Shown one piece after another: positions 6,145 through 38,773 of a stretch of 38,773 nt of DNA; the stretch's first letter is position 1; each line of letters opens with the position of its first letter. A program made the position numbers and the translations under genes. The notes below the pieces were generated by a model that saw nothing but the letters and a program-made list of their open reading frames with translations, did no database searches and was not told the origin of the DNA. Source of the DNA: a virus. The stretch spans positions 1 through 38,773 of the IMG/VR virus record IMGVR_UViG_3300032240_002289; one strand, 5' to 3'.

Positions 6145-7461
6145 CTAATGCCGAGGGATCACTTTGAGCCCCCCCGCCGAGGGTATCCACATTCTGGATA
6201 AAGCGCAAATAGAATACCCGAATGCATCGCTCATATGACTAAGCGTCGGGTCAGTCGTTTGATCGAGCTTTGGGAGCGCACTCGTTCCTTGCTTCCATGC
6301 GACGCGCTGCAAGTCTCGAATCAGTTTTGGGCATTTGTTTCTATGAATAAAGATATGAGGCGCTCCAGTTGCGTCCTTAAGTTTTGAGTTCACCACGTTC
6401 ACACGGTCAGCGACTAATGGGTTACTCTCAGGCGTTCTATTCTCATACCGGATGCCCGCTTGACTGAGGATCTCCTCCACGATCGCGAGATCCGATCTAC
6501 CCATCGCAGCACGTTGACCGGCTTTTCCAGTAGCATCTCCCACAAGAATAGCCTTCACCTGGCATTGCAAATTGAACTGTCTCAAGCGTGCGGCTAACTC
6601 TAAGGCTGCTTCTTGCGTGTGGGAACGCTCAAGATAGATCTCATCGAAGAAATAAAACTGCCCGACACGCTCTTGACCCAATACCCAAGACATAGGAGAC
6701 AAGTTGAAATCCATTCCGACGAGAACGGGGAGATAAGGGGAATAATCACCGTCGCGAGTAAATGGGCTTGAGTCAACCAGGTTCTGCGCGTGAAAATTGA
6801 TATAGGCCGAGCCATTATGGATATCCCTAAAATTTGCGTTAATTTCCTGGTCAAAAATAGCTTCGCTGAGTTCCTGTTTCGCTGCTTCGTACTCAGCTTG
6901 GGTAAATAAAGGGTTACACGTTGAGGGAGCGTGAAAGCTAGCCCATTCTGAATCCGTTTGGGATTTTTGGAATAGATCGAAAAACGTATCAAAGCCCCGG
7001 GGAGTAGACACGAATGCCGCCCAACCTTTGGTTGTGGTGAGCATGGGCCTAATGATTTGAGACCACAGCTCGGGCGCTTGATCTCTCACTTCGTCAATGA
7101 CTACCCCGTGCAAGGTCTCACCTCGTAGGTTTTGCGAGGTCTCACCCGACACGAAACGGATTTGGGAGTTATTAATCAGTTTGATTCTGAGTTCCGTTTG
7201 ATTCTTTTTGAGTAGCAATTCATCACACGTGTGAAGCATCCCGACTAGGCGGCGATATTGAACCCGCGCTTGGTCGTAGGTGGGAGATATATACCAGTAC
7301 GTCGTGCCGGGTGCCTCCCATGCCTTTTTCACCATTTCATTCAGGCACGCGGTAGACTTGCCGGATTGTCTTCCAAAAGATGCGACACGGAAGCGGGCAT
7401 TGGAGTTGTGGAATGCGAGCTGCGCTGAATGTGGGGTGTAGAGTCTGAGTCTAGCCTTCAT
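6145..7461 (-). CDS. terL: Terminase large subunit
   Basis: The 438-residue packaging motor has both expected halves. The ATPase part shows Walker A (FGRQSGKST, residues 29-37), Walker B (GVVIDE, 119-124) and the coupling motif FVSTPRG (150-156). The RNase H-like nuclease part shows three acidic positions: Asp251 in VGMDF, Asp309 in VGDATG and Asp412 in HMSDAFGY. It translocates DNA through the portal and cuts the concatemer. The first bases overlap the small subunit by 11, and the stop lies 2 bases from the tRNA. The length is normal for the family and all key residues are present. Confidence 0.95.
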   Translation of the reverse strand: MKARLRLYTPHSAQLAFHNSNARFRVASFGRQSGKSTACLNEMVKKAWEAPGTTYWYISPTYDQARVQYRRLVGMLHTCDELLLKKNQTELRIKLINNSQIRFVSGETSQNLRGETLHGVVIDEVRDQAPELWSQIIRPMLTTTKGWAAFVSTPRGFDTFFDLFQKSQTDSEWASFHAPSTCNPLFTQAEYEAAKQELSEAIFDQEINANFRDIHNGSAYINFHAQNLVDSSPFTRDGDYSPYLPVLVGMDFNLSPMSWVLGQERVGQFYFFDEIYLERSHTQEAALELAARLRQFNLQCQVKAILVGDATGKAGQRAAMGRSDLAIVEEILSQAGIRYENRTPESNPLVADRVNVVNSKLKDATGAPHIFIHRNKCPKLIRDLQRVAWKQGTSALPKLDQTTDPTLSHMSDAFGYSICALSRMWIPSAGGLKVIPRH

Positions 7462-7879
7462 CCTTGGATTTCGACGCCTCGCTAGTCGAGCCCCACTCGG
7501 CTTCGTAGGTAATTTCTTTCACCTGCGCTTTTACTTCTTGCTCGGTTTCGACTCGGTCACTCCATTTAAATAAGTTTTTTGTTAACCAAACGTAGAACCC
7601 GAGTTGAACATGAAGTTTTTTTCCAGTAGCTTTATCGTACGCCTCACCTAACATGGCGGCCTTACCGATTTTAATATACCATGCCTCGGAAAGAAGGCGT
7701 CCTTTTTTTACGGCGTCGGAAAAATCTGCATGTTTATCCTGCCATTCATAAACGGTATCGCGATGCACTCCCCAGCTTGCCGCAATTTGAGAAAGCACGT
7801 CACCGGCTTTTGATTTTTCGATAAAATCATGAGGATGAAAATCTGGATTGTATTTCGTTCGTCTTCCGAGTTTCGCCAT
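7451..7879 (-). CDS. terS: Terminase small subunit
   Basis: This 142-residue DNA-binding protein precedes and overlaps the large terminase gene. The N-terminal part reads as a helix-turn-helix (VLSQIAASWGVHRDTVYEW, about residues 28-46), followed by helices used for oligomerisation and a polar C-terminal tail. It recognises phage DNA and recruits the large subunit. It is the first gene of the late operon, and 241 bases without another gene, holding terminators and palindromes, lie in front of it. The small-subunit family is inferred from HTH, size and overlap with terL. Confidence 0.85.
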   Translation of the reverse strand: MAKLGRRTKYNPDFHPHDFIEKSKAGDVLSQIAASWGVHRDTVYEWQDKHADFSDAVKKGRLLSEAWYIKIGKAAMLGEAYDKATGKKLHVQLGFYVWLTKNLFKWSDRVETEQEVKAQVKEITYEAEWGSTSEASKSKDEG

Positions 7880-8120: not shown

Positions 8121-11100
8121 TTAGACAGCGTGAGTGTGAGTGCTGTAAGGCGCCTGAACGTATCCAGGAGCCACGACTTCCACGTGCTGCATCATACCCA
8201 TGTCCTGATCATCCAGGAGGTGACAGTGTACGAGGAAGAGACCGGTGTAGTCTTCGAACTTAGTTCTCATACGGACTTCGCCGCGAGATCCTGGATCAGC
8301 TTCATCTGCAACGATTGGATTCTCAGCAAGTACGCCCGCTGGGATCGTTGTGGTGTCCTCATACCCCTGGAATGCAATTGGCATTTCACGTTCAAACGTA
8401 TAAGCACCTTCTCCGCTCATCGGAGGATTAGGCATTGCGTTCGCGCCGAAAATACCGTCTCTGTATCCCATGATCTGGTATGGATTCACGTGAATATGAA
8501 ACTGATGGATGACGTCACTCTTGTTTTCCATCAAGATTTCTTCACAAGTGCCCAAATAAGCGACCGTGCGGTTGAAATCATTGTAGGGAGATTCGTTCAT
8601 CCAAGTCGATCCGCTTCCCATGCCAGCCACACCGCGACCATGAATCGCGAAACTCATGACTCGGCGTCTCACGATCTTATCTGCCAACGCTTCTACAGGA
8701 AGCGCAATGCCTCTGTAAAAGTAGTGGTCAGTTAGGATCTCAACGATTTGCTGATCTTGGTTGTTAGTCGAGGAGTTGTTAATCGTGGTCAATTTGAATA
8801 GGTCATATTCAAACGACACGGTTCCTTCGGCAGGAAGTGTAGCCGATGAGCCTTCAGGGACTGCGATTTTAAAAGTCGCAGCATCTGTCGCAAGCTCACT
8901 GATGACGAAATCCGTTCCACCGATGGCAACCCTTGCACCGACTGCAAGATGATGAGGTTGATCATTTGGCATGACCAGCGTTCCATCAGCTGCAAGTGTA
9001 GCACCTTCCACTGTAGCTACGATCGGAGTTGAACCGAGCAAGGTTTGTAATTCTGCGACTGAAGAGATATAACTCTTCGTTGCAAAGTCAACCTGTGGCA
9101 AGGCTGTGCCGTCGGTAGCAGGAGAGGGGAGCAGGCTCTCTAGTTTTGAAACGTGATTCGATGCGCTGCTTGCGAGAGTCTCGCCGTAAGCAATCGATGC
9201 GATCTTAACTGGTGCATCGATGTTATCGAAGGTTTCAGTTTCAGTGATCGGCAACGTGTAAATCGGATACTCGCCCGAGACTTCAACGCCCACTTTTGGG
9301 ACGACGAAGAATTCAAAACGCTGACCTGGGTTACAGATGATGTAACTCAAGCGAACGCCTGCTGGGTAGTAAACGAAGTCGGGGTCAATCACGGTGTCAG
9401 AGAAGCCTTGCGGAATGACTGGCACTCCGTCGCGGCCCACGATCACGAGGTCATGATCCTTGACTGCGATTCTGTGAAAAGTAATGCCCGATGCGTTGAG
9501 CATGGAGAACACTTTAAGTTCTCCTGCTTTGACCGAGTAAACCGGTTGCTTCTGACCGTTCACTGAGTGAATGAACTTCACATCCACTGGGGTACAGCTT
9601 GGGGTTGCCATGCTGAAATTTCCGTGAACGTGAGGAGCATTTCCTTCGAGAGCAGCGCAAGAGCAAATACACTTAGGATCTAAGTTGTCTTTGTAGTATG
9701 GGCTCAAGTCAAGCGCGTCTACTGGAGTGACTTTCTGTCCGTCCTCAGCTGGCGTTGCGTTTGGATCATAGACATCCAAAGGCAGGTTAGACACATAGTC
9801 TACCCAATTGAGCTCGTCGTGACCATTCAGGTTATCGCCCCACTGCATGCGTTGCAAGATCATGAATTCACGATCCACACCCGCTGCGTTGAGTCTTTGC
9901 TGATAGGGGCCTTCAATTAAGATCGGGCCTGCGGCACCGCGATCGATCATGTTCATCGAACCGCCGTGTCCGTGTGGGTGATACCAGTAGAGCCCACCGA
10001 AGTGATTCGCTGGCACTTCATAGTAATAACGAAGTTTCGAGCCTGGCTTAACGGTTCTCATGACGTTGTCGCCAAAGCCGTCTGGACGTGCGTGGACGCC
10101 ATGCCAATGCAGGTTAGTCTGTCCGCGTTGCATGATATGCTGCATCCAAATGGTCGCCGTATCAAGCGCCATGGGATTTGCGTTCAATGGATAAGCGCGA
10201 TCATCAAGATGCATGTGAAGCATCTCATGACGTTGCATCATGCCATCGGACCAAGGTTCAATTTCACCGAGGTCGTCCATGTTATTTTGGAATTCAACGG
10301 CCAGAGCATCGCCTGGGCGAACTTTCAAAACAGGACCGCAAATGGTACCGTTGAAATTAGCCGAGCGCTTCATGATGCGACCAAGCGCGAAAGCGTCATC
10401 CGTGTTCAGATTAAGCTTCACATTTAAAAGGCCGTCTTCAGACTCATAAAGAGCCCAAGCCTGTTTACCCAAATTCACACTTGGGTCAACGAGAGCTGGC
10501 TTTTTAACAGGCTCACCCTTACGCTCGATGTAAGGATTCGCTGCCTCTGCAAGTCCTTCGCCCTTGTCGGTTGAAGTAAGAGCAAACTTTCCTTTTTCAA
10601 TCCATTGGCCATCCAAACGGCGATACTCAACGACGAGCTCACCGTCTGCGTTTGTTCCCAGTCTCCATGAATCATGCTCGCCTGAGCCTAGATAGAGCTT
10701 ACCGGATTTAACACGGTTTCCGACTCGAACCTTCTGTTCAGAAAGAGCGGTCTTGTTATCAATCTTAATTTCTGTCTCACAAGAAAGATTAATATTATCA
10801 GAAGTATTCCAGGCATTGTTTGCATAGTCGTAGAGCCAAAAATGGTCTCTAAAGCCTTTGAGCACAATACCGCCGAAAGACGCATCCAAATCACCTACGG
10901 TTGCAGGATCGGCAGAGCCATTCAACACCAAACGCTTTGAATCCAAGATTTGCGCGCGGTGGGTTTCAGGACCCACGAATGGAGCGGCAGGGTCTCCGAT
11001 TAAAAGAGGACGGCACTCGGTAAAGTTACCAGCGGCTAGCCCGTCGTGGTCAAGATCATTCCAAGCGGTCACGCCGTCACCGACTTTAAACTGATGCGTA

Positions 11101-11189
11101 TCGGATTCAATCCCGATCTCACCCACTGCGAGGATAGGGTTCTGCTCGGTCCAGTGAGACGCTGGGCCGTGTTTCATTTGGATTTTCAT
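8121..11189 (-). CDS. Tail-fibre/multicopper oxidase fusion protein
   Basis: This 1022-residue protein is phage fibre at the front and enzyme behind. Residues 1-50 match the fibre N-terminal module found in Mtd-like and hyaluronidase-type fibres (NPILAVGEIGIESD, FKVGDGVTAWNDL). Residues 100-205 resemble fibre beta modules (GGIVLKGFRDHFWLYDY, GELVVEYRRLDGQW). From about 245 on it is a three-domain multicopper oxidase: FNGTICGPVLKVRPGD (279-294), motif I HWHG (His361, His363), motif II YHPHGHG (His404, His406), motif III HQFHIH (895, 898, 900) and motif IV HCH (988-990) with axial Met999. Asp994 stands where type-1 copper His is expected. A fibre-like beta segment (about 715-795) separates domains 2 and 3. 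There is no signal peptide. The start follows AAAGGAG. Such enzymes couple one-electron oxidation of metals or phenols to reduction of oxygen; the substrate and virion location here are inference. Confidence 0.9.
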   Translation of the reverse strand: MKIQMKHGPASHWTEQNPILAVGEIGIESDTHQFKVGDGVTAWNDLDHDGLAAGNFTECRPLLIGDPAAPFVGPETHRAQILDSKRLVLNGSADPATVGDLDASFGGIVLKGFRDHFWLYDYANNAWNTSDNINLSCETEIKIDNKTALSEQKVRVGNRVKSGKLYLGSGEHDSWRLGTNADGELVVEYRRLDGQWIEKGKFALTSTDKGEGLAEAANPYIERKGEPVKKPALVDPSVNLGKQAWALYESEDGLLNVKLNLNTDDAFALGRIMKRSANFNGTICGPVLKVRPGDALAVEFQNNMDDLGEIEPWSDGMMQRHEMLHMHLDDRAYPLNANPMALDTATIWMQHIMQRGQTNLHWHGVHARPDGFGDNVMRTVKPGSKLRYYYEVPANHFGGLYWYHPHGHGGSMNMIDRGAAGPILIEGPYQQRLNAAGVDREFMILQRMQWGDNLNGHDELNWVDYVSNLPLDVYDPNATPAEDGQKVTPVDALDLSPYYKDNLDPKCICSCAALEGNAPHVHGNFSMATPSCTPVDVKFIHSVNGQKQPVYSVKAGELKVFSMLNASGITFHRIAVKDHDLVIVGRDGVPVIPQGFSDTVIDPDFVYYPAGVRLSYIICNPGQRFEFFVVPKVGVEVSGEYPIYTLPITETETFDNIDAPVKIASIAYGETLASSASNHVSKLESLLPSPATDGTALPQVDFATKSYISSVAELQTLLGSTPIVATVEGATLAADGTLVMPNDQPHHLAVGARVAIGGTDFVISELATDAATFKIAVPEGSSATLPAEGTVSFEYDLFKLTTINNSSTNNQDQQIVEILTDHYFYRGIALPVEALADKIVRRRVMSFAIHGRGVAGMGSGSTWMNESPYNDFNRTVAYLGTCEEILMENKSDVIHQFHIHVNPYQIMGYRDGIFGANAMPNPPMSGEGAYTFEREMPIAFQGYEDTTTIPAGVLAENPIVADEADPGSRGEVRMRTKFEDYTGLFLVHCHLLDDQDMGMMQHVEVVAPGYVQAPYSTHTHAV

Positions 11190-11275: not shown

Positions 11276-12811
11276 TTAGACTGAACCGCCGTTCAAAGTG
11301 ACATCTCCAAGGTATTGACCTTTAGCAGAAATCACATCCCCAACGGACAACTGTTCTCCGCTTGGATCTACGAGTGAGCCGGTGAAGGTGACACGAGACA
11401 CGCCGCCATTGACGGACACGCTGAAATCCTCGCCTTCAAAAATCGCCAGACGACCGACGAAAAGCTGAAGAGAGTTGACGTCATAGTCGTGCGAAAGATT
11501 AATAAAGCCCTGATCCAAATGAGTCTGGGTCAATTCTACTTTCTCTTTTGCAGGAACGAAGTAAGCGGCTTCAAGAGCTGTGACGCGAGCATCTAAGGAG
11601 CTTTCAACTCCCTGAGCACGGGATGCTTCGCTTGCAATCGATGCACTCAGTGCGCTCTCAGCTGCGCGAGCAGTTGAGGCTTCCGAGGCTAAATCAGAAG
11701 CTAATGAGGCTTCGACACCCTGGGCGCGAGAGGCTTCACTTGCGACCTGAGAATCGGTGTAGGATTTCGCTTCAGTCAGGTTAGCGGCGACGGTGTTTAC
11801 GAGTGCGGCTACTGCGCTTTCGTCGCTTGCCAGCTGATCGTCAATTTTTTTAAGAGTGTCCAGCATCGCTGGAGCGCCCCCAATCAAATCAGCAATCTTT
11901 TGATCCGTGTAGGATTGAGCAGCCGACTGAGCGGCAGATTCTGCTGCGGTCGCGCGTGCAATTTCAGCGGTCAAGGCATCGCTTAAGCCTTGTTCAGCTG
12001 CGCGAGCGGTTTCTGATTCTGTGGTCAAATCAGAACGAAGGGATGCTTCTACGCCTTCAGCGCGAGCGACTTCTGCATCCAACGCAGATTGGAAGCTTGA
12101 GCTTGAAGCCGATTCCGCAGCTTGCGCCCGGGCAATCTCAGCGTCTAATGCGTTTGAGAGAGCAAGTTCCGCTGCGCGAGCCGTAGCAGCTTCGCTGACG
12201 ATTGCAGCTTCAGCGCTCGACAAACGACCATCAAGCGCACTTTCTTGAGCCTGAGCTCGGGAAGCTTCGCTTGCGATTGAAGAGGCTAGGTCTGCTTCAA
12301 CCCCTTGAGCGCGAGCGACTTCAGCGGTGAGATCAGAACGAAGGGATGCTTCAACGCCTTGTGCCCGGGATGCCTCGGAGCTAATCGCATCGCTTAGGCT
12401 CTGCTCCACGCCTTGGGCGCGGGAGGCTTCGCTTGCAACCTGAGAATCAGCGTAGGCTTTCGCTGTATCGAGGTTCTCAGCAACGGTCTGGACGAGAGCG
12501 CTTACGGCACTTTCGTCTTGAGAAAGTTGATCGTCAATTTTTTTTAAGGTGTCGAGCATCGCCGGAGCACCTCCGATCAAATCAGCAATTTTCTGATCGG
12601 TATAGCTCTCAGCGCTCGAGAGAGTGGCCGAGTCGCCTGCTGCGAAATCAGTTCGAATGGATGCGTCGGCATCACTTCTTAACTGCGCTTCTGCGGCGAC
12701 TTGCGCGTCGGTGTAAGAGTTAGCAGTCGAAACCGCCCCAGTTTGCTGAGAGGTAATGAAATTGATTACCTCGGGCGCTAAAAATTTCTTTTTAATTCTT
12801 TGATCTGACAT
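11276..12811 (-). CDS. Coiled-coil fibre protein with 18-residue repeats
   Basis: A 511-residue, Ala/Ser/Glu-rich protein, almost wholly helical up to residue 415. About ten copies of an 18-residue repeat of the type SEASRAQGVEASLRSDLT run through 127-411. A separate 68-residue block beginning SYTDQKIADLIGGAPAMLD occurs twice (69-136 and 300-367) with only scattered changes. Residues about 425-501 form a beta module that recurs at the C termini of three other proteins of this phage. The layout (N-terminal anchor, helical shaft, beta knob) suggests a trimeric virion fibre. It is followed by a strong terminator and then the fibre-oxidase gene. Attachment site and ligand are unknown. Confidence 0.8.
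   Translation of the reverse strand: MSDQRIKKKFLAPEVINFITSQQTGAVSTANSYTDAQVAAEAQLRSDADASIRTDFAAGDSATLSSAESYTDQKIADLIGGAPAMLDTLKKIDDQLSQDESAVSALVQTVAENLDTAKAYADSQVASEASRAQGVEQSLSDAISSEASRAQGVEASLRSDLTAEVARAQGVEADLASSIASEASRAQAQESALDGRLSSAEAAIVSEAATARAAELALSNALDAEIARAQAAESASSSSFQSALDAEVARAEGVEASLRSDLTTESETARAAEQGLSDALTAEIARATAAESAAQSAAQSYTDQKIADLIGGAPAMLDTLKKIDDQLASDESAVAALVNTVAANLTEAKSYTDSQVASEASRAQGVEASLASDLASEASTARAAESALSASIASEASRAQGVESSLDARVTALEAAYFVPAKEKVELTQTHLDQGFINLSHDYDVNSLQLFVGRLAIFEGEDFSVSVNGGVSRVTFTGSLVDPSGEQLSVGDVISAKGQYLGDVTLNGGSV
11579..12433 (-). repeat. 18-residue helical repeats in fibre shaft (54-bp period)
   Basis: The coding repeats translate as S/A-E-x-(S/A)-R-A-x-x-V/A-E-x-x-L-x-(S/D)-x-L/I-x, 18 residues each, interrupted by the second SYTDQK block. 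The DNA copies have diverged, so this is an old protein repeat and not a tandem DNA artefact. Confidence 0.8.
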
Positions 12812-12825
12812 GAAAGAGTCCTTTC

Positions 12826-13236
12826 TTACGTTCGGATATATCTGATTTTAAGAGAGTCACCGGCTTCGAGTGCTTCATCCCCACTTGAGCTCATGGAGTT
12901 TACCCAACTTAAACGAGTCACCCCATTGATTTGAGTTAAAATAAAATCCTCCCCCTCCCATAGGCTGAGACGATTCACAGAAGCCTGAATACTATTCTGA
13001 ATGGGAGTGTATGTGAGGTCAACGTATTGATTCAAAATATCATTGGAGCTGAGACTAAAAGTTTCGACGCAATGCGTAAAAGATGCACCACTTGTACTCG
13101 TGGTCAATCTCCAATCTGAGGCGTTATCCTTACCCACGGAAATGTAGGATTGCTTATTCAGGAGATCAATATAGTGATGACCCACCCCATTAGGCGTGAT
13201 CGAAGGACTTCCATTACCAGTGTAAATGTGTTGCAT
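12826..13236 (-). CDS. Short fibre-type protein with shared C-terminal beta module
   Basis: The 136-residue protein starts with a fibre-like segment (IYTGNGSPSITPNGVGHHYIDL, then YISVGKDNASDWRL) typical of phage appendage proteins. Residues 58-136 are the beta module also found at the C terminus of the 511-, 456- and 501-residue proteins: an E-x-F-S-L beginning, a W/F-EGEDF turn, TRLSW and a final GDSLKIRYI. Its gene lies between two other small structural genes and the long coiled-coil fibre. It is probably a small virion surface or adaptor protein. Confidence 0.65.
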   Translation of the reverse strand: MQHIYTGNGSPSITPNGVGHHYIDLLNKQSYISVGKDNASDWRLTTSTSGASFTHCVETFSLSSNDILNQYVDLTYTPIQNSIQASVNRLSLWEGEDFILTQINGVTRLSWVNSMSSSGDEALEAGDSLKIRYIRT

Positions 13237-13237
13237 A

Positions 13238-13501
13238 TTAAAAAGTTAATACCTCGCCTATCGGGGTCGTAAGAAATTCATACTCAAGTTGAGTGATGAC
13301 CGTCTGATTCAAAAAATTGACACCTACAATTTTAGGACCGAGCGCGGTCAAAACTCGATAAGCACCTTGGGATTGAGCGAGTTCTTGAATCGCGCTTTGA
13401 ACGGTTTGGGAGTTGAGCGTTGTGCCGGTGGGGTCAAAAGGGGTAGTTCCCGCATTTGGAGCGGGAATGTATTTCGTGACTATCCCGCCGTAAAGACTCA
13501 T
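13238..13501 (-). CDS. Small fibre-cassette protein
   Basis: The 87-residue protein contains NSQTVQSAIQELAQS, a helical motif often seen in phage fibre and baseplate proteins just before a beta region. It overlaps the upstream gene by 4 bases and stops 2 bases before the next gene starts. No enzyme motif is present. A structural role is inferred from the motif and context. Confidence 0.6.
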   Translation of the reverse strand: MSLYGGIVTKYIPAPNAGTTPFDPTGTTLNSQTVQSAIQELAQSQGAYRVLTALGPKIVGVNFLNQTVITQLEYEFLTTPIGEVLTF

Positions 13502-13923
13502 TGCCCGACCTCTTCAATCACGGCTATCCCTGTGGCGCCAGACTCCATGACACCATAAATTTGCATTGAATCGGAGAGAACTAATTCTTTTGCGCTCTGT
13601 GGCCAAATGATAAATCCTTCAGTGAGTGGCACAGAAGTGGTATAATTTACTAAAATATTTTTCGTCGTTGAAGTATTTTGAATCGTAACGCTGTGTCGAT
13701 TCGGTAAATTTTGTGAAGGCAGTGGCACCCAGGCCGAACTGTTTAATTGAACTGTGGTCACTCGGGCTTGCACTAGAGGTCTTAAATCGGTGTAGACCGG
13801 CTCATTAACTGAGTTCGTGATTTTAGTATGGAGTCTTCTCCGCCCGTCCGTATCGGCGGAGTTGCCGACCGGGTCCGAACGATCCATAAAAAGCCCGCTC
13901 ACGACTGGGGTTTCGTTTGCCAT
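13498..13923 (-). CDS. Small beta-rich structural protein
   Basis: A 141-residue protein with beta-strand pattern in its second half: RHSVTIQNTS, ILVNYTTSVPLTEGFIIWPQ, MQIYGVMESGATGIAVIEE. This layout (a value at a strand, a bulky turn, and a final short acidic strand) is shared with the 109-residue protein encoded at 20803-21132 on the other strand, and is common in small phage decoration or head-fibre proteins. It lies between a zinc-ribbon gene and fibre genes, so a virion surface role is likely. It overlaps the next gene by 4 bases. Confidence 0.6.
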   Translation of the reverse strand: MANETPVVSGLFMDRSDPVGNSADTDGRRRLHTKITNSVNEPVYTDLRPLVQARVTTVQLNSSAWVPLPSQNLPNRHSVTIQNTSTTKNILVNYTTSVPLTEGFIIWPQSAKELVLSDSMQIYGVMESGATGIAVIEEVGQ

Positions 13924-18478: not shown

Positions 18479-18664
18479 CGATATGCGTCTGTGTACAGAG
18501 TGAGGCTTGACGCCTCTTGAATTTTCAGACCACATACCGAAACTTTTTTAGGGTTTGTAAATCTGTACGAATTCGTCAAAATTCATAAAAGCTTTTCTAA
18601 CTTAAATTATTATAAATTCAAAGTTTTTCTTTTTTGTTTTCTTTTTATCGGCTAAATTTTGCGT
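18479..18664. promoter_or_regulatory. Divergent control region (replication operon / methyltransferase)
   Basis: The stretch between the divergent genes is AT-rich near the methyltransferase. It holds a second leader hairpin (GAGGC, TTGAC loop, GCCTC, 18502-18516) and a perfect palindrome ACGAATTCGT (18567-18576). The heptamer TTGACGC occurs at 18462-18468 in the terminator loop and at 18507-18513 in this hairpin. Promoters for both directions must be here; exact -35/-10 boxes could not be fixed. A replication origin could also be present. Confidence 0.5.
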
Positions 18665-20026
18665 ATGAAAATCCATTGTCCCTACGATCTTTTAGTTGCT
18701 ATTTCTGATCTGAAGCATCACCCTAAAAACAGAAATAAACACACACATCAACAGGAAGAGCGTCTAGCGGAAATTTTAAAATATCAAGGTTGGCGTTATC
18801 CCATCAAAGTCTCCAATCAAAGCGGTTTTATAACATCCGGACACGGAAGGCTTTTAGCCGCTCAAAGAAATGAATGGACCGAAGTTCCTGTTTCTTTTCA
18901 AGATTACGAAAGCGAAGAACAAGAATACGCTGATTTAATCGCAGATAATGCCATAGCAGCTTGGAGTGAATTAGATCTTGCAACAATTAATTGCGATATT
19001 GCTGATCTAGGACCAGATTTTAATATTGATTTGTTAGGCCTCAAAGATTTCGCCATTGATTTGAATGAAAAAGAACCTGATAAAGAAACAAGAGGTAATT
19101 TATCTGAAAAGTTTTTAATTCCTCCTTTTTCTGTGTGGAATGCTCGGGAAGGATGGTGGCAGGACCGGAAAAGATCTTGGATAGCTATGGGAATAGAAAG
19201 CGAGCAAGGCAGAGCAAACGACCTGCTTGATTTATTAGACGCTGCTACACTTTTAAAAAAAATCAAAGGATCAGAAGCGCCAGTGCAGTGTGGCACAAGC
19301 ATTTTTGACCCTGTAATTTGCGAAATTATTTACCGCTGGTTTTGTCCTTCTGAAGGTTTAATTTTAGACCCTTTTGCTGGTGGCAGCGTGAGAGGAATTG
19401 TTGCCTCTAAATTAAATCGACAATATGTTGGCAACGATTTGCGGCCTGAGCAAATTGAAAGCAATCGTGCTCAAGCCGATAAAGTTTGTGTTGACCCTAT
19501 GCCTGTTTGGCATTGCGGGGATTCGCGAGATATTGCAACCATCTGCAAGGATATCGAAGCGGATTTAATTTTCAGTTGTCCGCCTTACGCAGATTTAGAA
19601 GTTTATTCAGATAACCCAAAAGATTTATCAACTTTAGATTATGCAGAATTTAGGGCGGCTTATTTTGATATTATTAAAGAATCAGTAAAATTACTTAAAA
19701 ATAATAGATTTGCTTGTTTTGTTGTCGGAGAAGTCCGCCAAAAGAAAAATAATGGAATTTATTTAAATTTTGTAGCTGACACTATTGCAGCTTTTGAAGG
19801 TGCAGGAGCTAATTTCTATAACGAAGCAATTTTAGTCACCGCAGTTGGCACGTTGGCTCTGCGTGCTGGAAAAGCTTTCAGTGCGTCAAGAAAATTAGGA
19901 AAAACACATCAAAATGTTTTAATTTTTGTCAAAGGGAATGCAAAATTAGCAACTCAAGCATGTGGCGAAATTAAAATTGATGAAGACCTTTTAAAAAGCG
20001 CTGTTGACGCAACAGAGGAGCTCTGA
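18665..20026 (+). CDS. ParB-like/DNA methyltransferase fusion
   Basis: The 453-residue protein has a ParB/Srx-like N-terminal domain (NRNKHTHQQEERLAEILKY, then SGHGRLLAA with GHGR at 59-62), a linking segment (PPFSVWNAREGWWQDRKRSW) and a methyltransferase domain with SAM motif LDPFAGGSVRG (234-244) and catalytic CPPY (305-308). This order (SAM motif before PPY) fits an N4/N6 amino methyltransferase. Phages use such enzymes against host restriction or as epigenetic signals. The ATG at 18665 is preferred to the in-frame TTG two codons earlier; neither has a clear ribosome site. The gene is AT-richer than the structural genes and faces away from the operon, as expected of an acquired module. Confidence 0.85.
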   Translation: MKIHCPYDLLVAISDLKHHPKNRNKHTHQQEERLAEILKYQGWRYPIKVSNQSGFITSGHGRLLAAQRNEWTEVPVSFQDYESEEQEYADLIADNAIAAWSELDLATINCDIADLGPDFNIDLLGLKDFAIDLNEKEPDKETRGNLSEKFLIPPFSVWNAREGWWQDRKRSWIAMGIESEQGRANDLLDLLDAATLLKKIKGSEAPVQCGTSIFDPVICEIIYRWFCPSEGLILDPFAGGSVRGIVASKLNRQYVGNDLRPEQIESNRAQADKVCVDPMPVWHCGDSRDIATICKDIEADLIFSCPPYADLEVYSDNPKDLSTLDYAEFRAAYFDIIKESVKLLKNNRFACFVVGEVRQKKNNGIYLNFVADTIAAFEGAGANFYNEAILVTAVGTLALRAGKAFSASRKLGKTHQNVLIFVKGNAKLATQACGEIKIDEDLLKSAVDATEEL

Positions 20027-26331: not shown

Positions 26332-28368
26332 TTAGTTACCTACCCTTGCAATCGCAATAAAGTTATCGGTCACGCTATTACTTAGCGTCGTCGAGCCCGA
26401 ACCTACATTCATATAAACTTGAATGGTATCGCCTGCGTTGCAGCTAATCATTGCATTTCCAGTTACCCATGCGCGAGTTGTGCCGAGAACGTAATTATAT
26501 CCCAAAGTGTTAACTGATGAACCATTTTTATATAAATAAAGCTGCAAGTTGTTTGCAACTGCAAACGATGTAGATGCAGTCAAAAGAGTAGCTGAAACTG
26601 AATATTTTCCAGAAACCGGGACCGTGTAGGTTCCATTCACGTTCATGGCTGCGTGTGAATCAAAGACTTTTGTTGGCCAAGGTACAACTGCGGAGACGTT
26701 TGTAATTGAAGTTCCAGCGCCGTTTCCATAAGCAGCATTGACGCTTTCAGTCGCAGTGATGACTGCGGGACCGGAAAGCCTGAACAGACTTGCAGTAGTT
26801 GAAGCACTTCCCGCTGCAAGCGTTGCGTTACCGCCCGAGTCTTGTCTTACCCACCACTCCACATAGTCGCCTGCTTTAAGTCCAGGAATTAGCGTTGATG
26901 CGGGTAAACGATCTCCGCTCGGGAGCATTCCAAAGTATTGAGATGATCCACCATTGACGCGATATGATGTTAATTTAACCCCTGTTTGAGTGCTCCAATT
27001 TGTAACTGTAGATAAAAAATAATCGCCAGTCACAGCAATGTTCCACCGATTGTTAACACTATCAAAAATACCCGTGGGATCACTCAATGCGGAATTTAAA
27101 GGTACTTTTGCTTCAACATTAGTAGTAAAATTTCCAGAAGTAGCGGAAAGAGTAGCTTTTGAAGAAATAACCCTCGTATCCGTATCACTTGAACTGACGC
27201 TATTGCTTGAAAGTCCTACAATTGGAGCAACAAACCTGGCTTGGATAGTGTCAGTGCTACCGAATGTAAAGGGCACGGCCTGCGTGACTGCGCTTTCTAA
27301 CGAATAAGTGCCAGCCGCATTCATTGCGAGCATTTTCACGGTCGTTGTATTTACATAATTAACAACGCACGGATAAGAATTTACGCCTGTATCGGTGGCA
27401 ACGCCAATTCCCAATTGCTCATTATCATTTCCACTCAAAGCAAGTTTTGTTGTGTCAATTGACAACCCTGACGGAAGTTGAAGAGTGAGAGTCGTGCTTG
27501 TTGGCGCACCGGAGCACGTGATCGAATAATCAAACTCGTAACTATCTCCCACTCGACGATATTTGCCCACATAAGTTACGTTCGCTGTCCAAGTGCCTGT
27601 CGGAGTGAATGAAATCCAATCCGACATAGCAGGAGCGACTGCCGTTGGAGCGGGTCCAAGCGAAAAATCATCCAGATAAAACGTCACGGCAGCTGTAGAA
27701 TTTGGGAAATAAAGCGCAAGCCTGACACTCGTCGTATTTGCTGGCACCTGAAATGTAGCCGTAAATTTACCCACTGTTGCGGTATTTACGAAATTATAAA
27801 CCCCGGCGGGCTGAATCCATGCGCTATTGGTTACATCATAAATTGCTGCGGCTAGCGAGTTTGAGGAGGTACCAGAAAAATTAGGAGATCCAGAAGCCAC
27901 TTTGTAATAACAAGTGATGGTCTGGACGGACGCTTGAGCTTCTTTATCTAACGTGATCGCGTTTGAGACTAACATATCCCCAGCTGTCGTTGCAGCGGAG
28001 GAGGCAAGAGACAAGGAGTAGTTTCCAGCTAACTGAGAGCCCGAGCCGATGGTTGAGATGGCAAGAGTGCCCGCTGCAGAAGTCCATGACCCGCTTGCTT
28101 GATTGGGGAACTTATTTGAATCCAGTGTCGTATGAGAGAGAGACCATCCGGTTGTCGCGTTATTCTCAAAGGTTGAGCCAGTGGTGATATAGTTTTTAGA
28201 CCCACCGCCTCCGCCGATTGACCCCGCTTGAATCGCATTAAATAGAGTGTCGTTGATGCTATTACCAGTCACATAGATTTTCGTGTCATTCAAAAGTTGG
28301 GCAGCGGTTCCGCCAGCCGAAACTAATTCCGCACTGCTTTTAAAATCCTCATTCTGTAGTCTGCCCAT
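26332..28368 (-). CDS. Tail fibre with jelly-roll and two C1q-like domains
   Basis: The 678-residue protein starts with a coiled stretch (1-55), then a jelly-roll resembling a carbohydrate-binding module (about 60-240, with GNYSLSLASSAATTAG and FYLDDFSLGP), a beta domain (250-395), and two C1q/TNF-like domains (about 400-533 and 535-678), which share FDSVNNRWNIAVTGDYFLS and FDSHAAMNVNGTYTVPVSGKY, respectively. C1q-like tips are common receptor-binding units. The two copies are clearly related but well diverged. AGAGGG precedes the ATG. Confidence 0.75.
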   Translation of the reverse strand: MGRLQNEDFKSSAELVSAGGTAAQLLNDTKIYVTGNSINDTLFNAIQAGSIGGGGGSKNYITTGSTFENNATTGWSLSHTTLDSNKFPNQASGSWTSAAGTLAISTIGSGSQLAGNYSLSLASSAATTAGDMLVSNAITLDKEAQASVQTITCYYKVASGSPNFSGTSSNSLAAAIYDVTNSAWIQPAGVYNFVNTATVGKFTATFQVPANTTSVRLALYFPNSTAAVTFYLDDFSLGPAPTAVAPAMSDWISFTPTGTWTANVTYVGKYRRVGDSYEFDYSITCSGAPTSTTLTLQLPSGLSIDTTKLALSGNDNEQLGIGVATDTGVNSYPCVVNYVNTTTVKMLAMNAAGTYSLESAVTQAVPFTFGSTDTIQARFVAPIVGLSSNSVSSSDTDTRVISSKATLSATSGNFTTNVEAKVPLNSALSDPTGIFDSVNNRWNIAVTGDYFLSTVTNWSTQTGVKLTSYRVNGGSSQYFGMLPSGDRLPASTLIPGLKAGDYVEWWVRQDSGGNATLAAGSASTTASLFRLSGPAVITATESVNAAYGNGAGTSITNVSAVVPWPTKVFDSHAAMNVNGTYTVPVSGKYSVSATLLTASTSFAVANNLQLYLYKNGSSVNTLGYNYVLGTTRAWVTGNAMISCNAGDTIQVYMNVGSGSTTLSNSVTDNFIAIARVGN

Positions 28369-28634: not shown

Positions 28635-30005
28635 TTACAAGTACGAGTAAGCGACCGTCAACTTATCTCCGGCTACTAACGCAGTGCCCGCCGCAATTAA
28701 ATCTCCGGCGAAAGTCACCCGCGTCACGCTTGAAACTGTAGACAAGGTATAGTCCGTGCCTTCCAATTGCAAGAGTCCAGTCGCAAAAAGCAAGACTGAT
28801 CCAGTTTGAACCGTATGGGCAAGATCAATATATCCGTTCGTGATATTGGTTGCCGACAAAGTGAAATTCTCTTTCGTTGGCTTCAGACCTTCCAGCTGAT
28901 TTGAACCGTTGATCTTAACGGTTACACCGTCTACTTGAACGGCTAGACCGCTTGCACCCGTCACGATCGCACCCGATCCATTGAGCTTTACGCCCAGTTG
29001 ATTTGTGGCAATTTGCAACGTCGGGTTAGTTCCTTCAAGATTGACGCCTACGCCAGAAGCCCCACTTGTGATCGCACCCGATCCGTTGAGTTTCACCCCG
29101 AGTTTATTCGTCGCAATTTGCAACGATGGGTTACTTGACTCAAGTTGAACTGCGACACCCGAAGAACCCGAGACAATCGCGCCCGCTCCATCTAATTTCA
29201 CTCCTAGACGATTAGATGCAATTTGAAGAGAGGGATTAGACGCCTCAACTTGAAGGATCAATCCAGAGCTACTTGTGACGATAGGAGCGCCTGAATCCAG
29301 TTTGACTCCGAGTTGATTGGTTGCAATTTGCAACGTCGGGTTAGACGCTTCAAGATTGACTCCGATACCGCTCGCTCCACTTGTGATTGCTCGAGAACCG
29401 TCTAACTTAACTGCTAAACTTCCCGATGCGTTTTGCAACGTCGGGTTAGTTGCCTCAAATTTAGGCTGAATATCAACCCCAACTTTTTGCAAGCCCGTGC
29501 TCGCTGTCGTCTCTTCAAAATCTTTTGCCGCCCAAGCAGAGCCGCTATAGACATAAAAGCCCGTTGTATAGGTGTTTACATTGACAAAAGATCCCGCAGT
29601 GGGAGTCAAAAAATTCCAAGAACTCGTATAATAAGCAATCGCGTTAGCGTGTCCACTCCAAAGTCCGCTCGGGGAAGTTCCAACTAAGTAACGATCACCA
29701 CTTGAAGGCGATGACGGAGGAGTGTTCAGTGGTCCGTCTAAAACCGCTGAGATCCAGGTCGATGGACTTGTGGCGATGGCCGTATCGACATAATTTTTAT
29801 TTGCCACGTCATTCGATGCAGTTGGAGTCGTTGCAATCTGGGTTTGACCCATCAGTTGCATGATATTCGACCCATCCAACTGCAAAAGATTTACGTCTGC
29901 AGAATTCGCAGCATTCCTAGCCCGTAGTGGATTAGCATTTCTCAATCTAATTTTACTATCATTGATTGTATCTGCTAAAACAAATTTTCCGTTTAACTGA
30001 CTCAT
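28635..30005 (-). CDS. Tail fibre/baseplate protein with DUF2793-like and repeat domains
   Basis: The 456-residue protein has an N-terminal helical segment, a DUF2793-like domain at about 88-164 (SGDRYLVGTSPSGLWSGHAN, then AIAYYTSSWNFLTP), five tandem 35-residue repeats at 185-359 (consensus NPTLQIATNQLGVKLNGSGAI), a short remnant and the shared C-terminal beta module (379-456). The build suggests an elongated beta fibre ending in a tail-binding or receptor-binding knob. It lies between two other baseplate-fibre genes. Confidence 0.75.
   Translation of the reverse strand: MSQLNGKFVLADTINDSKIRLRNANPLRARNAANSADVNLLQLDGSNIMQLMGQTQIATTPTASNDVANKNYVDTAIATSPSTWISAVLDGPLNTPPSSPSSGDRYLVGTSPSGLWSGHANAIAYYTSSWNFLTPTAGSFVNVNTYTTGFYVYSGSAWAAKDFEETTASTGLQKVGVDIQPKFEATNPTLQNASGSLAVKLDGSRAITSGASGIGVNLEASNPTLQIATNQLGVKLDSGAPIVTSSSGLILQVEASNPSLQIASNRLGVKLDGAGAIVSGSSGVAVQLESSNPSLQIATNKLGVKLNGSGAITSGASGVGVNLEGTNPTLQIATNQLGVKLNGSGAIVTGASGLAVQVDGVTVKINGSNQLEGLKPTKENFTLSATNITNGYIDLAHTVQTGSVLLFATGLLQLEGTDYTLSTVSSVTRVTFAGDLIAAGTALVAGDKLTVAYSYL
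28929..29453 (-). repeat. Five 105-bp coding repeats (35 residues each)
   Basis: The repeats run from residue 185 to 359 of the fibre protein, with no gaps: each is x-x-N-P-(T/S)-L-Q-(I/N)-A-(T/S)-N-x-L-G-V-K-L-(D/N) and a GASG turn before the final V-x-L-E or similar. DNA identity is high between copies 4 and 5 and lower with copies 1 to 3. Confidence 0.85.
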
Positions 30006-37738: not shown

Positions 37739-38773
37739 TCAAGCGGACCCGTCGTTGCCTTGGAAAGCATAACGAGGATCGATGAAATCAGCGTTAGATC
37801 GCAGTCTCAACTTGAAACGCACCACGTCGCGGTCAAAGGATTGACCGGATTGTGGGTTTTCAAGTTCCACGACTGCAGCTTCTCGAACCTGAACGACGAA
37901 CCATGGGACCTTGGAATCAACCAGGTACCAGGCTTTTGAGCTACCAGTGACGGCGCCCGAGTTGTCGAACATGAATCGGCTGACTACCTTCTCAGCAATG
38001 CCTTCGATCGGGTTGATCGAGAAAGCGCCGCCGGTCTGTCCAGCGGTTGCACCCGTTGGGTAGTAGGCAGAGTGAAGGAGAACAGACAAGTCAAATGTCT
38101 GTGTCGGTCCACAGAGAATCTTGTCAGGCTGAACGTTCATCTTGAGGCCTAACAAGTTCTTCTGATTCATGAGAGCCACGAAAGCGCTCTGAATATTTGC
38201 TTGGTTAAGAGCACCGTAAGAAGCAGGGCGAGTAGCGCCGCCGCCGACGAGAGCGGTTGACCAAGGGTAGGTGGATTCGTCCGCTGGCTGAGTTTCAGAC
38301 ACAGGGATAGAAAGCCCGCCGTAGCTCATGTTAGCTACAGAAGCCAACTTACCGTAAGCAAGAACTTCGAGAACTTGCTTGGCGTACTGACCAAGTAAAC
38401 CAGATTGCTTTTGAAATTGTCCGGTCTGATCGTCTTCAAGCAATTCTTTCGAAACTGCGAAGAGTGTCCCAAACTTCTTGTTCCGAAGTTTCAAATCCAA
38501 GCCAGCTGCGCCGACTTCTGGATAAACTTCTTGCTCACCAATGGCACCGGGGAAACCGACACCATGAAGGGGAGCATAGAGTTCTTCGAGTTTAGAGGAT
38601 TGAACCGTGTGGGTCCAGTTCTCAAAAGTCGTAGGCACGGTCTCATACATCGAGTTAACGATGCTCTGAACGCCTGCGCGAAGAACTTGAGGAAACAAAG
38701 TCACCGAATCAGCTTCGGTTAACTTCTGGCGTGCTTTTTTAAAGCTCCATGTTCTTTTGTGAACAGGAAACTC
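37739..38773 (-). CDS. Major capsid protein, main part (starts at 267 across the join)
   Basis: This part holds residues from the join to the stop and contains most of the 392-residue capsid protein. It shows a recognisable capsid pattern: a long N-terminal arm (VLRAGVQSIVNSMYETVPTT), a spine helix (GQFQKQSGLLGQYAKQVLEV), peripheral and axial regions (QANIQSAFVALMNQKNLLGL, NPIEGIAEKVVSRFM), and a C-terminal strand pair ending QSFDRDVVRFKLRLRSNADF. The layout resembles Mu gpT-type and HK97-fold major heads. The arm follows GDYVEKPDDE-like context only in function; no direct motif is claimed. The gene is preceded by protease, scaffold and decoration genes. Confidence 0.85.
   Translation of the reverse strand, partial: EFPVHKRTWSFKKARQKLTEADSVTLFPQVLRAGVQSIVNSMYETVPTTFENWTHTVQSSKLEELYAPLHGVGFPGAIGEQEVYPEVGAAGLDLKLRNKKFGTLFAVSKELLEDDQTGQFQKQSGLLGQYAKQVLEVLAYGKLASVANMSYGGLSIPVSETQPADESTYPWSTALVGGGATRPASYGALNQANIQSAFVALMNQKNLLGLKMNVQPDKILCGPTQTFDLSVLLHSAYYPTGATAGQTGGAFSINPIEGIAEKVVSRFMFDNSGAVTGSSKAWYLVDSKVPWFVVQVREAAVVELENPQSGQSFDRDVVRFKLRLRSNADFIDPRYAFQGNDGSA
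38651..38773. repeat. Right copy of 123-bp terminal direct repeat
   Basis: This copy is identical to positions 1-123 and ends the window. It lies within the major capsid gene, which reads through the join. One copy should be removed to close the circle. Confidence 0.95.

Follow-up and report, generated by a model that had tools for sequence, protein, structure and literature searches.

To our knowledge, the enzymes carried on phage tails cut or de-acetylate polymers. In Rhodococcus phage ReqiPepy6, the proteins gp1, gp2 and gp5, as annotated, consist of an Mtd_N module at the N terminus and, after it, an enzyme-type head with an SGNH esterase or pectin-lyase fold. We detected Mtd_N in the four ReqiPepy6 tail fibres tested (including gp2 and gp5), above the Pfam cutoff in three and just below it in one, and two of the four are annotated with esterase heads. 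Because these fibres join Mtd_N to annotated enzyme heads, the combination of an anchor and an enzyme is already known. The protein described here follows the same scheme, but its head has an oxidoreductase fold, that of the multicopper oxidases (MCOs).

Bacterial MCOs and laccases, such as the Thermus laccase (2xu9, 9cpm), Campylobacter McoC (3zx1), CueO and CotA, share with the phage protein three cupredoxin domains in the same order, the eight histidines of the trinuclear centre, and the His, Cys and axial Met of the type-1 copper site. Unlike them, the phage protein has Asp in place of the second type-1 His, no signal peptide, a fibre anchor, and about 280 extra residues that include a Cys/His insert. 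CotA of the Bacillus spore coat is an MCO located on the exterior of a particle and synthesised in the cytoplasm without export. Being cellular, with a canonical type-1 site and no fibre, it differs from the phage protein, but by analogy it shows that, in principle, an MCO from the cytoplasm can be loaded with copper and displayed on a particle.

MCOs encoded by viruses and mobile elements have also been described. Viruses of ammonia-oxidising archaea encode MCO1, an auxiliary metabolic gene of the archaeal MCO/NirK family for which no fibre fusion has been described (PMC9859776), and thaumarchaeal mobile elements carry MCO genes reported as metabolic (PMC6563490). The giant-virus copper oxidases (Satyrvirus, Hyperionvirus) are alike in fold, but they belong to large viruses of eukaryotes and are not tail fibres. 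SufI/FtsP of E. coli, an MCO fold that serves as a scaffold without copper (PMC2661564), likewise has altered copper sites, but keeps 2/12 ligands compared with 11/12 in the phage protein. No description of an MCO on a phage tail was found in the literature searched. As far as our searches and the literature go, an oxidoreductase head on a tail fibre is new, whereas the fibre scheme itself is known.

Architecture of the Fusion Gene

The window, i.e., the whole stretch of DNA analysed (38,773 bases), bears a 123-base direct repeat at its ends (1–123 = 38651–38773) and, given these identical ends, can be taken as a phage genome closed into a circle. The capsid gene spans the join of the circle (ORFs 1–267 and 37739–38773). 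The window encodes major capsid/protease-like, portal, terminase, tape-measure and fibre proteins, and its gene plan appears siphovirus-like. The fibre-MCO gene (8121–11189, minus strand, as are all its parts given below) is an uninterrupted ORF of 1022 aa with the ATG at 11189 and the stop at 8121. It is intact and has full-length homologues in two other phages, designated L001 and L002.

Residues 3–41 (11067–11183) correspond to the Mtd_N fibre anchor domain, which was recognised above the Pfam cutoff (PF18454, 1.8e-7) and by a dozen PHROG families of tail and virion proteins, thus representing a recognised N-terminal module of fibres. The linker module that follows (residues 50–244; 10458–11042) is confined to the window phage and its two MCO relatives. 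A BLAST search with residues 51–244 gave no match in 50,697 phage records, and one weak PHROG match to a virion protein covered residues 100–155 (4e-4). We rejected this linker as a common fibre module, since outside the two MCO relatives it has no match. The preliminary description had assigned fibre motifs to two stretches; residues 1–50 indeed hold Mtd_N, and residues 100–205 are matched weakly and in their 100–155 part. The absence of a signal peptide was confirmed: the N terminus is a fibre module, and the maximal 15-residue hydropathy is 0.38.

The rest of the protein (residues 245–1022; 8124–10457) is a three-domain MCO head with large inserts, as judged from Pfam, PDB sequence and Foldseek searches. 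In the Pfam search, the N-terminal part was recognised by Mtd_N and the head by Cu-oxidase_3 (residues 356–428, 1.4e-13) and Cu-oxidase_2 (residues 862–1005, 5.1e-10), both above their cutoffs; the middle-domain family Cu-oxidase scored 0.0044, below its cutoff. A PDB sequence search found the Thermus laccase (9e-18), the alignment being spread over all three domains. Foldseek aligned the models with laccases, that of Thermus among them, over about 777 columns, with an E-value of about 1e-30 and a TM-score of about 0.78 by target length. The AlphaFold models, both monomers, are of modest confidence (mean pLDDT 52 and pTM 0.55 for the full-length protein, 57 and 0.61 for the head only), and MCO sequences were present in the input alignment, so that the sequence matches serve as the independent evidence for the MCO fold. 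Taken together, the results place three cupredoxin domains in order from residue 245, far beyond chance.

Copper Ligands and Phage-Specific Inserts

The copper-binding motifs HWHG (residues 361–364; 10098–10109), HPHGH (404–408; 9966–9980), HQFHIH (895–900; 8490–8507) and HCH (988–990) were found exactly at the residues given in the preliminary description. All eight trinuclear-centre histidines are invariant in the alignments: H361 and H363 (both in alignments of 18 and 34 sequences), H404 and H406, H898 and H900, H988 and H990. The type-1 ligands H895 and C989 and the axial M999 are invariant as well. The claim that all four motifs of an MCO are present holds for the first three, whereas the fourth is incomplete. 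Instead of the canonical HCHxxxHxxxxM, the window protein has HCHLLDDQDMGMM (residues 988–1000; 8190–8228), where H988, C989, H990 and M999 are retained and the second type-1 His is replaced by Asp994 (8208–8210). Among the 66 distinct MCO ORFs in the gathered loci, Asp stands at this position in 3/3 fibre-MCOs and His in 63/63 non-fibre MCOs, the latter including many close Gilliamella relatives. Overall, 11/12 ligands are kept; the loss of most copper ligands, as in SufI, was not observed, and the type-1 set of His, Cys, His and axial residue lacks its second His. We also considered H1002 as a stand-in for the lost His and rejected it; this residue is Gln in L001 and so is not conserved.

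Since all members have a substitution at one of the type-1 copper ligands, the label of a canonical laccase or metal oxidase cannot be assigned from the sequence, and the protein is best regarded as a homologue within the MCO superfamily rather than as a canonical blue MCO. Asp994 may abolish canonical electron transfer. With this replacement, the type-1 centre is predicted to be unusual and probably of low potential, unless the head works without the standard blue site. Nitrosocyanin is a red copper protein with a Glu ligand, and by analogy the type-1 site would be expected to have a lower potential when one of its ligands is a carboxylate. The type-1 site is among the best-studied copper centres, and a conserved Asp there would represent a naturally occurring variant.

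Two inserts distinguish the phage head. The phage-specific CICSC...HVH...C insert (residues 507–532; 9594–9671) is absent in cellular MCOs, and its Cys and His residues are all invariant in L002; it may form an extra metal site or disulfides. Residues 450–540, which hold this insert, show zero amino-acid changes between the window and L001. The other insert lies between domains 2 and 3 (residues 690–800; 8790–9122), has no counterpart in most cellular MCOs, and is the fastest-changing part in comparison with L002. For the head as a whole, the comparison of the window with L001 gave 0.30 synonymous and 0.026 nonsynonymous changes per site (dN/dS about 0.07). This points to strong functional constraint (purifying selection) on the head, including the Cys/His insert.

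Distribution of the Gene and Its Exchange between Phages

Searches of IMG/VR revealed two further full-length copies, in L001 (96% identity) and L002 (64–66%), which brings the known members to three. Searches with the head alone, with the linker, and with a DNA pattern for the type-1 Asp (HCHxxxD scan) returned the same two relatives and no others. In all three phages the head is fused to Mtd_N and the linker, and none of them carries it as a separate gene without a structural fusion. In the 50,697 phage records, any one protein covered at most a quarter of the query, nearly all matches being to the N-terminal fibre module; the head alone gave weak matches only, to prophage-type or unannotated records. 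In BFVD, the fold was significantly matched only in the giant viruses Satyrvirus (A0A3G5AHN9) and Hyperionvirus (A0A3G5A9G4). The IMG/VR pattern scans yielded no other phage MCO fusions: eight canonical HCHxxxH matches lacked a fibre module, being ORFs of the signal-peptide type or partial ones, and the WYHPHxHG contig L134 was rejected as a 14-codon chance match.

Cellular MCO relatives are distant, with about 25–33% identity over the longer aligned stretches, and in the tree the phage heads form their own clade (support 100/100) on a long stem. The plasmid collection, the loci picked by pattern from 84,980 species genomes and a sample of 398 genomes from a single phylum yielded no close cellular relative. 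A recent capture of a host MCO is unsupported by these data, given the low identity, the long phage stem and the lack of a close cellular relative. L001, L002 and the MCO-less sister phage described below bear neighbouring IMG sample numbers (in numerical order, 3300032265, 3300032269 and 3300032285), which may point to one sampling campaign.

The window and L001 share DNA, at 91% identity, over the fibre-MCO gene and over no other part of the 19-kb locus of L001. Their identity climbs from about 60% to more than 90% between gene nucleotides 50 and 200, and at the protein level it amounts to 69% for residues 1–36, 99.5% for residues 37–244 and 96% for residues 245–1022. The confinement of the high DNA identity to this gene, along with the less alike N terminus, argues that the gene travels as a unit. 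L001 has baseplate wedge genes, thus indicating a contractile-tailed phage, in contrast to the siphovirus-like window phage. The gene moves as one cassette between unrelated phage types behind a differing anchor, just like host-recognition modules, and this exchange of modules between phages is what one expects of fibre genes. The anchor is the part that differs most, and it would have to fit the recipient virion. Upstream of the fibre genes, the L001 sequence at 588–2192 reads as two divergently oriented genes of the IS200/IS605 kind, a TnpB-like one on the minus strand and a TnpA-like one on the plus strand.

The Variable Fibre Locus

A sister phage, G404 (IMGVR_UViG_3300032269_001237), is collinear with the window: its major capsid protein is 100% and its TerL 95% identical, and most of the remaining genes are 78–97% identical, some lower. 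An ORF at 18659–20026 that joins a ParB-like part to a DNA methyltransferase is 97% identical in the two phages. The MCO gene is absent from the sister record. Although this record is listed as linear and is perhaps not complete, it does contain the fibre locus in intact form. Between the homologue of 13498–13923 and the terminase genes, the sister phage has a different 639-aa fibre with a similar N and C terminus, and two further relatives have a 784-aa fibre at the same locus. The presence of a different fibre at this place in a collinear sister without the MCO indicates that the MCO gene sits in a variable fibre locus. Such loci are the usual place of host-recognition proteins, and variation of a structural locus between close relatives, as found here, is typical of fibres.

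The genes in and around the locus given here all lie on the minus strand. The gene was earlier said to sit among fibre genes. This holds for its upstream side, where a coiled-coil partner fibre (11276–12811) lies immediately upstream of the MCO gene in 3/3 phages, but not for its downstream side, which is bordered by the genes for the small (7451–7879) and large (6145–7461) terminase subunits, recognised by PHROGs (together 6145–7879). The diverging flank of the locus is formed by small fibre-associated genes (12826–13236, 13238–13501 and 13498–13923, together 12826–13923), which are 37–51% identical in the sister phage vs. mostly 78–100% elsewhere. The partner fibre is 43% identical to that of L001, and the partner fibres of the three MCO phages have similar N- and C-terminal modules. 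The L002 partner (2647–7935 in L002; 1762 aa) carries seven FG-GAP repeats (3e-68) and a lectin-like Laminin_G_3 domain between coiled coils.

Discussion

In this work, we describe a gene that joins a phage fibre anchor to an MCO head. The gene is shared by several bacterial viruses that are otherwise unrelated, and this suggests that viral tails may bear a redox enzyme. The display of the protein on the virion, proposed in the preliminary description, is supported by the replacement of the locus in the sister phage, by the transfer of the cassette with a differing anchor, and by the occurrence of the same anchor on annotated enzyme-bearing fibres; from the sequence evidence, display within a receptor-binding locus is highly probable. 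Copper binding at the trinuclear site is predicted with reasonable likelihood. The enzymatic part of the proposal is weakened, though not refuted, by the replacement of one type-1 ligand in every member, and redox activity on the host surface is predicted tentatively, at somewhat less than an even chance. We regard the combined reading, i.e., a tail fibre of the receptor-binding locus with a copper-binding and probably redox-active head, as rather probable.

The main rival is a non-catalytic adhesin, in which a borrowed MCO fold would serve as a rigid head; its type-1 site would no longer function, and its other copper sites would do no more than support the fold or contact a receptor. The exchange of the type-1 His for Asp in 3/3 phages, the place of the gene in a receptor-binding locus and the precedent of SufI (PMC2661564) agree with such a pseudo-enzyme; however, the phage protein keeps nearly all of its ligands where SufI keeps two, they are invariant down to 64% identity, and the head is under strong purifying selection, so we consider this rival rather unlikely. 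A head that sequesters copper or another metal without catalysis, through the trinuclear site and CICSC...HVH...C, for fibre stability or for binding to metal-coated cells, seems improbable. In favour of this idea, few stretches are as well conserved as the Cys/His insert, which cellular MCOs lack; on the other hand, the Cys of the insert may simply form disulfides, and the trinuclear centre is complete, its known role being O2 reduction.

Stand-alone MCO genes are carried by viruses that infect ammonia-oxidising archaea (PMC9859776) and by thaumarchaeal mobile elements (PMC6563490). They bring to mind an auxiliary metabolic enzyme that would work within the infected cell, where it would detoxify copper or take part in nutrient metabolism, the fibre module being incidental. 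The fusion to a tail-fibre anchor, the adjoining fibre gene in three unrelated phages, the lack of a signal peptide and the replacement locus all speak against this, making it very improbable. An assembly or annotation chimera, a concern already raised in the preliminary description, can be considered practically negligible: the gene is of metagenomic origin only, but the fusion is carried by three independent, otherwise unrelated contigs, in intact genes without premature stops (window, L001 and L002), one of them at 64–66% identity.

Returning to a copper-binding and redox-active fibre, we suppose that the protein would be synthesised in the host cytoplasm without export, that the short Mtd_N module would anchor it to the virion beside the coiled-coil partner fibre, and that the three-domain head would be presented outward. 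Copper would be acquired at or after lysis; its loading outside the periplasm is not assured. During adsorption, the head would bind and probably oxidise a component of the outer layer of the host, such as a metal-, phenol- or polymer-rich coat, acting in a manner likened to that of a tailspike depolymerase or esterase. The substrate might be sought in the host surface, its sheath, minerals or metals. In its full form, namely the first oxidoreductase-headed tail fibre, a virion-borne MCO with an Asp-ligated type-1 copper that oxidises an outer-layer component during adsorption and has spread as a cassette among siphovirus-like and contractile-tailed phages, this proposal falls somewhat short of even odds, and we put it forward as a possibility. 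If true, a redox enzyme on the tail would be a new way through the outer layer of the cell, and oxygen chemistry could be carried out by free virions in the environment, which would affect the cycling of metals and phenolics. Even a non-catalytic adhesin would mean that a large metalloenzyme fold was recruited into a host-recognition locus.

The partner fibre bears a C-terminal GG[ST]V tail in 3/3 MCO phages (11276–12811; L001, 4814–7912; L002, 2647–7935) and in 0/4 other fibres compared, and the tail is absent on the genes preceding Mtd_N proteins in Syn19 or ReqiPepy6. In this small sample, it offers a weak lead to a docking peptide for Mtd_N. Elsewhere in the window, a fibre encoded at 28635–30005 combines DUF2793 with adenovirus-like shaft repeats, PF06536, the fibre repeat of avian adenoviruses, being matched five times (1.6e-31). 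A tail-region protein encoded at 26332–28368 has a weak C1q-like match at its C terminus (6.7e-4, below the cutoff); it is 49% identical in the sister phage and is perhaps a second variable fibre.
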